Assembly: GCA_021730285.1 (NCBI GenBank)
Contig: CP082962.1
Span: 1,426,001 to 1,490,000, forward strand
Source of the DNA: Desulfovibrio sp. JY
GTDB taxonomy: Bacteria > Desulfobacterota > Desulfovibrionia > Desulfovibrionales > Desulfovibrionaceae
Length of the DNA: 64,000 bases
Direction: 5' to 3'
Shown: positions 405 through 60,762 of the stretch, piece by piece
Numbering within the stretch: position 1 is the stretch's first letter
Layout: each line of letters begins with the position of its first letter
The notes under the pieces: model-generated
What the model was told of the DNA's origin: nothing
Seen by the model: the letters and a program-made list of their open reading frames with translations, nothing else
Database searches by the model: none
Program-made: the position numbers and the translations under genes

Positions 405-440
405 AAAAAAGGCCGCTTCCGAGAGGAAGCGGCCTTTTTT
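405..440. terminator. bidirectional intrinsic terminator
   Basis: A perfect 10-bp stem GGCCGCTTCC / GGAAGCGGCC (411-420 and 425-434) with a GAGA tetraloop is flanked by A6 on the left and T6 on the right. It can therefore end transcripts from both the plus-strand gene before it and the minus-strand parA gene after it. Confidence 0.9.
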
Positions 441-455
441 GTTTCACGTGAAACA
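440..455. promoter_or_regulatory. parS: parS centromere site 1
   Basis: TGTTTCACGTGAAACA is a perfect 16-bp palindrome and an exact match to the bacterial chromosomal parS consensus bound by ParB. It lies between the terminator and the 3' end of parA. Confidence 0.93.
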
Positions 456-536
456 CCGTGTTACCGGCGGCATCGTGAAAAGAGAACGTCGAGGGTTATC
501 CGAAATATCTTCCTATAAGGCAGTACGGCACAAAAC

Positions 537-1304
537 TCAGGCCGGCTGACGTCGGACGACTTCCTGGGCCAGGGACAGATAGGCCGAGGCGCCACGGGAT
601 TTGACGTCGTGGGTCAGGACAGGCTTGCCGTAACTGGGCGCTTCGGACAGACGGATATTGCGCGGAATAAGGGTCTGGAAATACAGCTTGGGAAAGCATT
701 TCCATATCTCGCGCTTGACATGGCGATTGAGCTTGTTGCGGCCGTCATACATGGTCAGGGCCACGCCAAGCAGCGTCAGACGGTTATTGAAGCGTTTGCG
801 CACCTGGTCAAACGTACGCAGCAACTGGGCGATGCCTTCCAGGGCGTAGTATTCGCATTGCAGCGGCACGAGCAATTCGCTGGCCGCGCAAAGGGCGTTG
901 AGGGTCACCAGTCCCAGGGAGGGCGGACAATCGAGCAGGATGTACTCATAGTCATCCTGCACAGTGTCGATCAAGGCCCGGAGGAAATATTCCCGGCGCG
1001 GTTTGTCCACCAGCTCGATTTCTGCCGCCACGAGATCGGGACCGGAAGGAAGCACGCTCAGAAAGGGGAGTTCCGTGCCGACGATAGCTTCCTTGGCCCG
1101 GGCCGGTTCATACAAGACCGTGTACAGATTTTCGCTGACCTGGTCGGGATAGACGGAAAGACCGCTGCCGGCATTGGCCTGCGGATCACAATCGATCAGC
1201 AGGGTTTTTTTTTCCATGACGGCCAGGGATGCGGAAAGATTGACCGCCGTCGTGGTCTTGCCGACGCCGCCCTTTTGATTGGCAATAACGATGACCCGCG
1301 CCAT
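537..1304 (-). CDS. parA: ParA/Soj-type chromosome partitioning ATPase
   Basis: A 255-residue deviant Walker-A ATPase that in its family moves or positions ParB-parS complexes and, in Soj proteins, can also modulate DnaA. The start at 1304 gives [18 protein letters not shown] with the KGGVGKTT motif at residues 10-17, preceded by a GAGGAGG ribosome site. A longer frame to 1361 would add 19 unusual residues and run into the second parS. The conserved [12 protein letters not shown] stretch (Walker B region) and length are normal for chromosomal ParA. Two parS sites flank the gene. No parB gene follows in the usual position, since the next gene downstream is convergent and unrelated. Confidence 0.93.
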
Positions 1305-1360
1305 AAGCCCTCCTCGATCCCATATGATCAGCCAGGGCGCAACGCGCCACGGCGCAGACA

Positions 1361-1376
1361 TGTTTCACGTGAAACA
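1361..1376. promoter_or_regulatory. parS: parS centromere site 2
   Basis: A second exact TGTTTCACGTGAAACA palindrome lies upstream of the parA start, 921 bp from the first copy and 11 bp from the stop of the preceding gene. ParB bound here could also affect parA transcription, which is an inference. Confidence 0.93.
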
Positions 1377-1387
1377 GTGGAAAAGGC

Positions 1388-1678
1388 TTAATCGCGGAAC
1401 ATGCGATGGCAGTACGATTGCGCGTCATCAAGGGACTCGACGAGCATGACGCATCCTTCCACGTCGCCCTTTTTGACGGCATTGAGCAGCTGTCCGGCAA
1501 GATGGGAAAAATCCTCGGCCTCGTCCATCCACGTTTCACCGGCCTGCTGGTGCAGGCGCTGGGCTAAGCGGAAAAAACGATTCACATCCGCTTCTTCAGG
1601 AAGATTGGCTTCCGCGACCTGGCTTTGGATTTTCGTAAAAACCGTTTCAAGATCACGTTTCGTGGTCTGGAATTCCAT
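1388..1678 (-). CDS. small conserved-looking hypothetical protein upstream of parA
   Basis: Encodes 96 residues, acidic and predicted mainly helical from its composition, with no Cys pairs, signal peptide or membrane segment. I do not recognise the family. It is the gene directly upstream of parA on the same strand, separated by 83 bp that hold parS site 2, so the two may be co-transcribed. A TTGACA hexamer on the minus strand at 1747-1752 could be its -35 element, with only a weak -10 about 15-17 bp further. Confidence 0.7.
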   Translation of the reverse strand: MEFQTTKRDLETVFTKIQSQVAEANLPEEADVNRFFRLAQRLHQQAGETWMDEAEDFSHLAGQLLNAVKKGDVEGCVMLVESLDDAQSYCHRMFRD

Positions 1679-12004: not shown

Positions 12005-12066
12005 GTTAAAAGTCTTTGGAAGGGGGGTCCGGGGGGAAACTTTTCTCCAGAAAAGTTTCCCCCCGG
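12005..12066. repeat. type I hairpin repeat, copy A (single unit)
   Basis: A tail GTTAAAAGTCTTTGGAAGG (from 12005) leads into a perfect 18-bp stem CCGGGGGGAAACTTTTCT / AGAAAAGTTTCCCCCCGG (12029-12046 and 12049-12066) with a 2-nt loop. It sits 15 bp beyond the gyrB stop on the minus strand. Confidence 0.9.
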
Positions 12067-15826: not shown

Positions 15827-15889
15827 AAAAAAAAGGAAACGCAAAGCGTCCTCCCGGCGACGGAGGGAGCCGCGCCGCGCACTTTGCGT
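15827..15889 (-). terminator. intrinsic terminator or attenuator after dnaA
   Basis: Read on the minus strand, ACGCAAAG pairs with CTTTGCGT across a GC-rich inner hairpin (CTCCC...GGGAG), followed by TTTCC and T8. It begins at the dnaA stop codon and would separate dnaA from dnaN transcripts. Confidence 0.75.
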
Positions 15890-17226
15890 CATGCCGGGCC
15901 TCCTTGGCGGCACTTTTTCGTCAACTGGCGGAACATCAGTTTCGTATCTCTGTCAGCATCCTGTAATTGCTGAAATTTTCGGATAGAATAGAGGACCGTG
16001 CTGTGGTCCTTGCCGCCGAAAACCTTGCCCAGGGCCGGGTAGGACATGCCGAGCAGCGCGCGGCAAAGGGCCATGGAGGCCTGGCGGGCGAAGACCAGTT
16101 CCTTGCGCCGGGAATGGCCGGTGATGTCGGCCACGCTCAGCTCGAAGTGGTCGGCGCACACGGCCAGGATGCGCTCCGGGGTCAGTTCCGGGGCCTTGCG
16201 GTCCTCGGACAGGCGGATATGGCGCGCCAGTTCCGCATCGGTCAGTTCCTGGCCGGTGTGGCGGCGGAAGGCCTCGATGCGCAGCAGCACGCCTTCGAGC
16301 TGGCGGAAGCCCTCGAACCGGCTGGCCAGGGTGAGCGCTTGTTCGCGGGAGAGCCCCAGGCGCTTGTCGCGGTTGGCGTGCTCCACGCAGCGCACGCGCA
16401 CGTCGAGGTCCGGGAGCTTCAAATGGACCATGAGCCCCCATTCCAGCCTGGATTTGAGGGTGGGGCCGAAGTCGCCGGAGGCCACGCGTTCCCGGCAGGA
16501 AAAGACCATCTGCTTGCCCGCGTCGTGAAAGGCGTTGAAAAGCAGCACCAGTTCCTGTTCCAGGATCGGGTCGCGTTTGACGTCGGCCAGCTCGTCTATA
16601 AAAAGGAAATCATGGGCCGCGATGGCGGCGCGGATCTCGTGCAGATTGGCCGTGGCGTCGGCATAGCGGTTGCCGATGTCGTCGATGGAGCCGAAAAAGA
16701 CGGTGGCGTCGGGGCGCGAGCGGCTTACGGCATTGGCCATGGCCCGCAGCAGATGGGTCTTGCCGGCGCCGGACGGGCCGCAAAGCAAAAACGGATTGTA
16801 GCGCACCTCGCGTCCGCCGGCCACTTCCCGGGCCAGGGCCAGGGGAAAGTGGTTTTTTTCGTTGGCTAAAAAGGTCTCGAAGGTGAAACGGTGGCCGTAG
16901 GGGAAATCCGTCACCGCCCGCAGGGTGGCCAGGGGCTGGCGCTTGTCGCCCCCGGCGCAGCGCGTCTGGTAGCGCACGGCGTAGCCGTTGCCGAGAAACC
17001 GGCCCACTTCCTTTTCGAAAAGGTCCCTGACGGAGGTTTCGAACCAGGCGGCGAAATAGGCGTGGGGAAAGCGCACGAGGCAGCAATGCTCCGACGCGCT
17101 GACCGAAAGGTCGAGCGGATCGTACCAGCGGCGCAGTTCCTGTTCGGGACAGGTGCGCGACAAATGCTGTCGGAGGTCGTCCTTGAGCACGCCGTCACCG
17201 GAATCGATCACAGGCACGGGCTTCAT
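15889..17226 (-). CDS. dnaA: chromosomal replication initiator DnaA
   Basis: A 445-residue AAA+ initiator. Domain I covers about residues 1-80. The AAA+ domain has the Walker A motif GPSGAGKTH, Walker B FLFIDEL and a sensor/arginine region KSRLEWGLMVHL. The C-terminal domain IV has the DNA-binding signature GKVFGGKDHSTV. The protein ends KKCRQGGPA. It heads the minus-strand dnaA-dnaN-gyrB-gyrA block and is divergent from the DUF39 gene. No consensus DnaA boxes were seen in the flanking gaps. Confidence 0.97.
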   Translation of the reverse strand: MKPVPVIDSGDGVLKDDLRQHLSRTCPEQELRRWYDPLDLSVSASEHCCLVRFPHAYFAAWFETSVRDLFEKEVGRFLGNGYAVRYQTRCAGGDKRQPLATLRAVTDFPYGHRFTFETFLANEKNHFPLALAREVAGGREVRYNPFLLCGPSGAGKTHLLRAMANAVSRSRPDATVFFGSIDDIGNRYADATANLHEIRAAIAAHDFLFIDELADVKRDPILEQELVLLFNAFHDAGKQMVFSCRERVASGDFGPTLKSRLEWGLMVHLKLPDLDVRVRCVEHANRDKRLGLSREQALTLASRFEGFRQLEGVLLRIEAFRRHTGQELTDAELARHIRLSEDRKAPELTPERILAVCADHFELSVADITGHSRRKELVFARQASMALCRALLGMSYPALGKVFGGKDHSTVLYSIRKFQQLQDADRDTKLMFRQLTKKCRQGGPA

Positions 17227-42249: not shown

Positions 42250-43743
42250 ATGGTTCGCGACACGCTCTTTATCGACGGTGTCTGGCGACCGGCCGCCTCC
42301 GGGGCCACGCGCCCGACCGTCAACCCGGCCACGGGCGAGACGTTGGCCCGGGTGGCCGATGCCGGCCGCGAGGATACGCTGGCCGCCATCGCCGCCGCCC
42401 GCCGGGCCTTCGATGCCGGCGTCTGGTCCGACGTGCCGGCCCCCAAACGCGGGGCCATGGTGCGACGCCTCGGCGACCTGATCGAGGAACACGCCGAGGA
42501 ACTGGCCGAACTGGAGACCCTCGACACCGGCAAGACGCTGGAGGAATCGCGCTGGGACATGGCCGACATCGCCGGTATCTTCCGCTACTTCGGCGGGTTG
42601 GCCGACAAGGAGGGCGGCGAGGTCATCGCCTCACCCAACCCGGATTCCACAAGCCTGCTCGTGCGCGAGCCCGTGGGCGTGTGCGGCCAGATATCGCCCT
42701 GGAATTATCCGCTGCTCCAGGCCGCCTGGAAGATGGCCCCGGCCCTGGCCGCCGGCTGCGCCATCGTGGTCAAGCCGAGCGAGCTTACGCCCCTGACCAC
42801 CCTGCGCGTCACCGAACTGGCCGAGGAGGTCGGATTTCCGGCCGGCGTCTTCAATATCGTAACCGGCCCGGGCGATCCGGTCGGAGCGGAGCTCGCGGCC
42901 AACCCGGACGTGGATCTGATCTCCTTCACCGGCGGCATCGTCACCGGCAAATCCATCATGCGGGCGGCCGCCGGCAACGTGAAAAAGGTCGCCCTGGAAC
43001 TGGGCGGCAAGAATCCCAACATCGTCTTCGACGACGCCGACTTCGACGTGGCCGTGGACTACGCCCTGAACGCCGTCTTCTTCCACGCCGGCCAGATCTG
43101 CTCGGCCGGGGCGCGGCTCATGCTCCAGGACGGCATCCACGACGCCTTTGTCGCGGCCCTGGCCGAACGCATCCGCACTATCCGCCTGGGCAGCGGCCTT
43201 GACGAGGGCACGGAGATGGGGCCGCTAATTTCCGCCGCCCACCGGGACAAGGTGGAAGGCTACGTGGAAATCGCCCGAAAGGAAGGGGCTAGGCTCGTCT
43301 GCGGCGGAGCGCGCCCCGACGATCCGGCCCTGGCCGCCGGCTATTTCTACCTGCCCACGCTTTTTACGGGTTGCGAAAACGCCATGCGCGTGGTCCAGGA
43401 AGAAGTATTCGGTCCGGTCATCACCGTGGAACGCTTCAAGACCGAGGACGAGGCGATAAGCCGCGCCAACAGCACCATCTATGGTCTGTCGGCCGGGTTC
43501 TGGACCCGCGACCCGGACCGCATCGCCCGGGTTTCGCGCAAACTCCGGTTCGGCACGGTCTGGGTCAACGACTTCAACGTGTATTTCACCCAGGCCCCCT
43601 GGGGCGGCTACAAGCAGTCCGGACTTGGCCGCGAACTCGGCCGCATCGGCCTGGAAGAATACCAGGAGGTCAAGCACGTCTACCAGAACCACGCGCCGAA
43701 GGCGGTTGCGTGGTTTGGTGCAACCGGGGGGAAACCTTTCTGA
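42250..43743 (+). CDS. betB: betaine-aldehyde dehydrogenase
   Basis: A 497-residue NAD(P)-dependent dehydrogenase that makes glycine betaine. The start at 42250 has AAGGAGG. The catalytic Glu is in VALELGGKNPN and the Cys in HAGQICSAGAR. SPWNYPLLQAAWKMAPAL and the Rossmann loop FTGGIVTGKSI bind NAD. The last codons (GGKPF and stop) are read from the left arm of a type I repeat hairpin, so the repeat has contributed or replaced the C-terminal end. Confidence 0.93.
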   Translation: MVRDTLFIDGVWRPAASGATRPTVNPATGETLARVADAGREDTLAAIAAARRAFDAGVWSDVPAPKRGAMVRRLGDLIEEHAEELAELETLDTGKTLEESRWDMADIAGIFRYFGGLADKEGGEVIASPNPDSTSLLVREPVGVCGQISPWNYPLLQAAWKMAPALAAGCAIVVKPSELTPLTTLRVTELAEEVGFPAGVFNIVTGPGDPVGAELAANPDVDLISFTGGIVTGKSIMRAAAGNVKKVALELGGKNPNIVFDDADFDVAVDYALNAVFFHAGQICSAGARLMLQDGIHDAFVAALAERIRTIRLGSGLDEGTEMGPLISAAHRDKVEGYVEIARKEGARLVCGGARPDDPALAAGYFYLPTLFTGCENAMRVVQEEVFGPVITVERFKTEDEAISRANSTIYGLSAGFWTRDPDRIARVSRKLRFGTVWVNDFNVYFTQAPWGGYKQSGLGRELGRIGLEEYQEVKHVYQNHAPKAVAWFGATGGKPF

Positions 43744-43870
43744 AGAAAGGTTTCCCCCCGGACCCCCTTTCCCAAGACTTTTAGCGATAACAGATTGTCA
43801 CCGTTAAAAGTTTTGGGGAGGGGAGAGCGCGAGAGGGGAACCCTTTTTTCAAAAAGGGTTCCCCTCTCGC
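43724..43870. repeat. type I paired hairpin repeat, copy D, overlapping the betB stop
   Basis: Unit 1: CCGGGGGGAAACCTTTCT / AGAAAGGTTTCCCCCCGG (43724-43761, 2-nt loop). The betB TGA (43741-43743) occupies the loop. Spacer with ATAACAGATTGTCACCGTTA. Unit 2: tail AAAAGTTTTGGGGAGGGGAG, then GCGAGAGGGGAACCCTTTTT / AAAAAGGGTTCCCCTCTCGC (43829-43870, 20-bp perfect stem). Confidence 0.92.
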
Positions 43871-49656: not shown

Positions 49657-49817
49657 CCGGGGGGAAACTTTTCTGTAGAAAAGTTTCCCCCCGGACCCCC
49701 TTTCCAAAGACTTTTTCCAGAAGAGGGGAGGTTGCCGAGGTGACGCCCTTGAAAAGTTTTTGGGAGGGGAGAGCGCGAGAGGGGAAGCCCTTTTTTCAAA
49801 AAGGGTTCCCCTCTCGC
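49657..49817. repeat. type I paired hairpin repeat, copy F
   Basis: Unit 1: CCGGGGGGAAACTTTTCT / AGAAAAGTTTCCCCCCGG (49657-49694, 2-nt loop). The spacer is GC-richer than in other copies. Unit 2: GCGAGAGGGG...CCCCTCTCGC (49775-49817) with one bulged base. Confidence 0.9.
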
Positions 49818-60596: not shown

Positions 60597-60762
60597 CCGG
60601 GGGAGGGGGCTTTTTGAAAAAAGCCCCCTCCCCCGGACCCCCTCCCGCAAAAACTTTTCGCGGGGGGCGATGTGCTCCATCAAGATGCTTCCGTCCCCCT
60701 TATGAAAGTCTTTGGAAAGGGGGTCCGGGGGGAAACTTTTCTTCAGAAAAGTTTCCCCCCGG
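60597..60762. repeat. type I paired hairpin repeat, copy G, inside the liv operon
   Basis: Both units are of the CCGGGG type: CCGGGGGAGGGGGCTTTTT / AAAAAGCCCCCTCCCCCGG (60597-60636) and CCGGGGGGAAACTTTTCT / AGAAAAGTTTCCCCCCGG (60725-60762), with mirrored tails. Sits between the liv binding-protein gene and livH. Confidence 0.92.

Follow-up and report, generated by a model that had tools for sequence, protein, structure and literature searches.

The DNA analysed, referred to here as the window, was a stretch of 64,000 nucleotides of the Desulfovibrio sp. JY genome that starts at genome position 1426001 (1426001–1490000). Positions are counted from the first nucleotide of the window, and negative positions lie to the left of it. 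Near the left end of the window, parA (537–1304, minus strand; the start codon was picked by conservation) encodes a chromosomal ParA/Soj-type ATPase of 255 aa with the sequence KGGVGKTT, which matched AAA_31 at 207.6 bits (cut-off 27). The second-closest match to parA within the genome was 33% identical. The parB gene was located outside the window at -1128 to -196 (genome 1424872–1425804, minus strand), and its product of 310 aa was of the ParB/Spo0J type [ParB_N: E 3e-34; TIGR00180: 194.5 bits (cut-off 58.45)]. No other ParB_N match at E ≤ 0.001 was found in the genome, a single contig of 4,686,982 bp. The N-terminus of ParB starts with MAQAQKGLGRGLEALLG, and its segment LGRGLEALLG includes the LG(R/K)GL motif.

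The parA and parB genes are on the same strand with a spacing of 732 bp and have one gene between them. This intervening gene lies on the plus strand from an inferred start at -41 to 390, is convergent with parA and divergent from parB, and encodes a zinc-ribbon protein of 143 aa. Between the intervening gene and parA, a bidirectional intrinsic terminator was found at 404–441, consisting of a perfect inverted repeat (404–420/425–441) with 17-nt arms, a 4-nt loop, an A-tract and a T-tract. The folding energies of the two strands were -30.6 and -27.6 kcal/mol (z -6.9 and -6.3). This terminator was absent from the output of a scan for consensus promoters and terminators; pairing of its T-tract with the A-tract is the probable reason. 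Elsewhere in the window, the near-perfect palindrome GGGGAAACTTTTCTNNAGAAAAGTTTCCCC was present at 12033–12062, 43728–43757, 49661–49690, and 60729–60758 (four copies at ≤3 mismatches and 0 in 100 shuffles), and visual inspection showed one more copy to the left of the window (L004, about 14400). These copies probably represent an intergenic repeat or terminator family.

The parS palindrome TGTTTCACGTGAAACA occurred with 0 mismatches at two sites that flank parA and are 921 bp apart. One (1361–1376) is upstream of parA, 56 bp from the inferred start codon of the gene. The other (440–455), a perfect 16-bp palindrome, lies downstream of parA, and its first two bases overlap the inverted repeat of the terminator. 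No further parS was found in the 64-kb window at ≤3 mismatches (100 shuffles gave a mean of 0.14 sites, with at least two in 3 of them) or in the 4,686,982-bp genome at ≤2 mismatches (reversed control pattern, 0). A search with the inner 12-mer at ≤1 mismatch added three scattered single-mismatch sites in the genome (reversed control, 1). Many scattered parS sites were rejected for the source genome, which has two sites only at ≤2 mismatches, and these two sites, parA and parB all lie inside about 2.5 kb. According to two papers, parS sites are usually found close to the origin, and a single site can be enough (PMC7333895, PMC7022226).

To the right of the par locus lies a dnaA-dnaN-gyrB-gyrA block, in which dnaN, gyrB, and gyrA were named by eye. 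The dnaA gene (15889–17226, minus strand) has its start codon at 17226, 15.9 kb from the parS site at 1361. The DnaA encoded next to dnaN-gyrB-gyrA scored 247.9 bits, well below the NCBIfam DnaA cut-off of 343.9. No DnaA-box cluster was found near dnaA; 100 kb contained 2 strict boxes, neither of them near dnaA. The cumulative GC skew, which was coarse (20 stretches of 10 kb), had its minimum at about 0.96–1.7 Mb and its maximum near 3.6 Mb, and is compatible with an origin in the par region. The local skew was left unused, as it seemed to track gene strand.

ParABS is generally presented as an operon of two genes accompanied by parS, and an uninterrupted operon is the usual arrangement but not a universal one. 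The present locus resembles chromosomal ParABS systems in having parA, parB and the canonical 16-bp parS grouped in a small region, at a distance of about 16 kb from dnaA-dnaN-gyrB-gyrA. It is unlike the usual form in that parA and parB are split by a conserved antisense gene, a promoter-like element and a terminator. The ParABS system itself is known; the architecture of the locus appears to be new, as judged from the literature matches listed. From what is known of the family, the locus is very probably a working chromosomal ParABS system with ParB loading at both parS sites: ParB-CTP clamps would load at the two sites flanking parA, and the loaded ParB would spread across the parA region and be moved by ParA. 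With an antisense gene and a bidirectional terminator between them, parA and parB look like separate transcription units; judging from the anatomy of the locus, this is the most likely arrangement.

An earlier note, made from the window alone, had described two perfect parS sites around parA at about 15 kb from dnaA, and both statements agreed with the measurements above. It had further proposed that the centromere is centred at parA, that parA has no adjacent parB and unrelated next genes, and that parB is encoded elsewhere. The part on the centromere was supported at the level of sequence, as the only two parS sites of the genome (≤2 mismatches) flank parA. The part on parB did not: parB begins 196 bp beyond the left window edge, on the strand of parA, and a single gene, not several, separates the two. 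The note had suggested a look for parB elsewhere in the genome and a scan of the chromosome for more parS; the former returned the single ParB_N match 732 bp from parA, and the latter returned no other site at ≤2 mismatches. A parB just outside the left edge in the same operon, which the note had named as evidence against its own proposal, was found as far as its position is concerned, but not as part of the same operon, given the convergent gene and the strong bidirectional terminator that intervene. The impression of an orphan parA arose from the cut of the window 196 bp to the right of parB. A parA lacking a neighbouring partner accords with the window itself, which shows no parB, and two relatives (G017 and G527) appear to carry parA away from parB; for the source genome, however, the place and strand of its single ParB_N match refute this proposal, which retains practically no probability.

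The conservation of the locus was examined in a family sample of 99 genomes, drawn evenly from a larger group, an order sample of 120 genomes and a phylum sample of 395 genomes; the family and order draws follow GTDB. In the family sample, parA was found in 95/99 genomes and parB in 95/99, with both found in 95/99, and the two were on the same contig and strand in 93. In 91 of these 93 family loci, a parS with at most 2 mismatches was located no more than 400 bp upstream of the parA match (median start, -59); in G015 and G018, the stretch read contained none at this threshold. A parS beyond the parA end was present in 5 of the 93 loci: G000 and its sister G058 as well as G031 had an exact copy, and the copies of G073 and G092 had 2 mismatches. 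The seven Solidesulfovibrio-type loci L218–L224 (L224 = G097) had the upstream parS only. Among 16 further loci of the order, hand-picked from 120, parS was upstream in 8 and at or beyond the parB end in 7 (G486, G489, G495, G503, G511, G515, and G522); G522 had an additional 1-mismatch parS between parA and parB, and G492 had only a 2-mismatch site, inside parA. The loci with parS at or beyond the parB end in place of an upstream site, from other families of the order, were L257–L259, L262, L265, L270, and L271. One family genome (G056) had, on several contigs, 12 parS-like sites at ≤1 mismatch, compared with 0–4 in the other 98 family genomes.

The upstream site in 91/93 loci against the downstream site in 5/93, together with the upstream parS only in L218–L224, suggests that the upstream parS is ancestral in the family and the downstream parS recent. 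The downstream parS, overlapping the terminator, would then be a recent second loading site, and the upstream parS is placed where ParB could also damp the transcription of parA. Two other explanations of the sites were weighed. The upstream parS might mainly be an operator for autoregulation of parA by ParB, with the second site as the working centromere; its distance of 56 bp from the inferred parA start and the similar position (median -59) in 91/93 loci would suit such a role. However, in 88 of the 93 family loci, no parS was seen past parA within the stretch read, so that the upstream parS would have to serve as the centromere there, and some parS sites of other families are at or beyond the parB end and cannot be a parA operator, which leaves this explanation improbable. 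The second site (440–455) might also be no more than a fortuitous or inert product of the terminator repeat, the end of which it overlaps by two bases, and among the Solidesulfovibrio-type loci examined it was present only in the source species and G058. Against this, an exact 16-mer by chance is very unlikely, with no third site (≤2 mismatches) in 4.69 Mb; the site is exact in G058 despite a diverged convergent spacer, and G031 has a downstream parS at the same place. A chance or inert origin is rated as still less probable than the operator role.

A homologue of the intervening gene was found between parA and parB in 67 of the 93 family loci, always on the opposite strand (weakest E 4e-23). 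In a whole-genome profile search, the gene was detected in 68/99 family genomes with one copy each, of which 67 were between parA and parB and one (G017) was beside parB. The 26 family loci without the gene had no match anywhere in their genomes. The gap between the parA and parB matches was <300 bp in 23 of the 93 loci and ≥393 bp in 70; of the 26 loci without the gene, 24 had a gap of ≤393 bp, and G053 and G056 had longer gaps.

In the order Desulfovibrionales, the intervening gene was found in 109/120 genomes, parA in 117/120 and parB in 115/120. Wherever all three were on one contig, the intervening gene separated parA from parB and was oriented against them (102/102), and this count included 47/47 genomes from five other families. 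Seven other order genomes had the gene on a contig without parA, parB or both. Most of these look like contig breaks or missing matches, while G527 is a probable true exception to the order parA, intervening gene, parB. Of the 11 order genomes without the gene, eight had parA and parB 53–304 bp apart, one had parA only and two had neither. In the phylum draw of 395 genomes, of which 359 were not itemised, the 16 matches to the gene all fell in the family of the window. A tblastn search of 72,556 plasmid and 50,697 phage records gave no match at E ≤ 1e-3, and the gene was therefore rejected as mobile-element cargo. One contig filed as a Bacillota MAG (L232) carried a Desulfovibrionaceae-like par locus with a parA 79% identical to that of the window; this contig is probably mis-binned.

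In two genomes, G017 (L253, L254) and G527 (L255, L256), parA with an exact upstream parS was well inside another contig. The intervening gene was still divergent to parB in both, and the place of parA was taken by an epimerase gene or by a gene called hemC-like on the basis of its translation. The separation of parA from parB in these genomes seems to be true, with misassembly as an alternative. This arrangement suggests that the stable pair is the intervening gene plus parB.

The divergent spacers between the intervening gene and parB were compared in the 67 loci. The k-mers found there were mainly of the ribosome-binding-site and TTGAC type (AAGGAG, CTTGACA), and no operator palindrome was apparent in this k-mer listing. 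The pattern TTGAC-N16-20-TANNNT, which was chosen after viewing the enriched k-mers, occurred in the direction of the intervening gene in 20/67 spacers, including that of the source genome, with 0.42 spacers expected from base shuffles; towards parB it occurred in 0/67. On this pattern, the intervening gene looks likely to have its own promoter. The dN/dS values of the intervening gene were 0.045–0.242 in 8 pairs, one of which (G079/G057) was saturated; those of parA were 0.010–0.088 and those of parB 0.061–0.236. By these estimates, the intervening gene is under purifying selection.

In the consensus, the intervening protein starts with a beta-beta-alpha part, followed by a linker containing PEPL.DWE.L..YWDF.YP and by a CxxC...CxxC zinc ribbon. 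All Pfam matches of the 42 members scanned were below the cut-off or not significant, and NCBIfam gave no match above the cut-off for two full-length members and the truncated one of the window. The PDB sequences gave no significant match (best: RPA12, E 0.12; MqsA N-terminus, E 0.22–0.78). A known Pfam, NCBIfam or PDB family was therefore rejected for the protein; the sub-threshold matches were mostly zinc ribbons. The homologue of S. alcoholivorans (L223, 78% identical to the part encoded in the window) was modelled with a mean pLDDT of 87.4 for the whole protein and 88.5 for the ribbon alone, and Foldseek searches with either the complete model or only its ribbon returned nothing at E ≤ 0.001 among the matches listed.

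Among the 50 matches listed, the tightest superpositions of the predicted zinc ribbon were with NrdR zinc ribbons (five entries), with 1.6–1.8 Å over 40–41 residues at Z 3.4–4.3, which is below the level at which the aligner is trusted. One of these entries (9a6n) is a model titled as a Soj-NrdR complex; no paper on a Soj-NrdR contact was evident by title among the matches listed. The intervening protein differs from NrdR in having no useful sequence similarity to it, and the ATP-cone was absent from the 10 Pfam matches (E ≤ 1) of the protein of the source genome. Kinship to NrdR by sequence was rejected, as hhalign gave no meaningful alignment. The resemblance of the modelled ribbon to that of NrdR is thus a lead, not a result.

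The locus was also compared with the parA-parZ/parB-parS system of the Borreliaceae (PMC9712426), which likewise has a non-operonic par locus and an extra gene that is family-restricted and formerly had no known function. ParZ is in an operon with parA, has a ParB-like LG(R/K)GL peptide, a motif for ParA control, and replaces ParB in the control of ParA (PMC9712426). Unlike parZ, the intervening gene faces the opposite way and its product lacks LG(R/K)GL, the motif being present in 0/67 of the family proteins, whereas the ParB of the present locus keeps it. Among the literature matches listed, none was a paper on the intervening gene as judged by its title or the beginning of its abstract.

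A quick maximum-likelihood tree was constructed from the joined ParA and ParB sequences with 109 rows, comprising the 93 family loci and the 16 hand-picked order loci (G328 of the same family and 15 of other families). The tree has long branches, and the outgroup does not form one side of a branch, as G033 groups with it. The presence or absence of the intervening gene required 7 changes on this tree, at least 5 of which were forced by well supported branches, compared with an average of 26.6 changes for shuffled presence labels; the tree shows no direction, so that gain and loss are not distinguishable on it. Since the gene was present in all six families sampled, the simplest reading would be one early gain followed by repeated loss. 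With its presence changed at least 5 to 7 times, the gene is dispensable in lineages that keep parAB.

The gene order next to parA was examined in the loci with ≥950 bp upstream of parA, 5 of the 93 being dropped as too short. An epimerase gene was present in the 1 kb upstream of parA in 55/66 loci with the intervening gene and in 6/22 loci without it, a flank of 1 kb that underestimates the epimerase linkage; with longer flanks, the epimerase was near parA in 12 of 14 named Desulfovibrio-type loci (L218–L231). A GAK-system XXXCH-domain gene, which in the window lies directly upstream of parA (1388–1678, minus strand; 86.4 bits, cut-off 40), was found within the same distance in 21/66 loci with the intervening gene and in 0/22 loci without it, which makes 21 of all 93 family loci. 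As the neighbouring gene order is conserved too, linkage alone proves no shared function, and that of the intervening gene could reflect descent.

Two explanations of the linkage were weighed. The strict linkage, the divergent arrangement and the precedent of the Borrelia ParZ suggest that the intervening protein may act in partition or in the regulation of par, as a locus-linked regulator or accessory factor; this is possible, at rather less than even odds in our judgement. A more specific form of this proposal, in which the zinc-ribbon protein would be a fourth, order-specific component that binds DNA of the par locus or touches ParA or ParB and so sets their balance, is more tentative still and somewhat unlikely. 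The gene may instead have a function unrelated to segregation, and the chances of this are about evenly balanced. The corresponding scenario, a single insertion near the base of the Desulfovibrionales and retention by the conserved gene order of the origin region, was given the same even weight. Such a history would fit the conserved neighbouring synteny (the epimerase count of 55/66 being an underestimate), the repeated changes in presence while parAB stayed, and the lack of a known partition domain in the protein. However, the linkage of the gene looks stricter than that of the two neighbours tested (XXXCH 21/66, epimerase 55/66), the gene was beside parB in 68/68 family genomes that carry it, and it stays with parB where parA is elsewhere (G017, G527). 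On balance, a function other than segregation is considered somewhat more likely than a role in par.

These results showed that most of the genomes examined in the Desulfovibrionales, an order of sulfate reducers, carry an additional gene of opposite orientation between parA and parB. Across the family sample, this gene was located at parB and at no other place, and where it is absent, parA and parB are mostly direct neighbours. The intervening gene is a candidate for a previously unrecognised factor of partition or of par regulation in hosts whose cell cycle has been little studied, and the several independent changes in its presence provide a natural experiment on its role.
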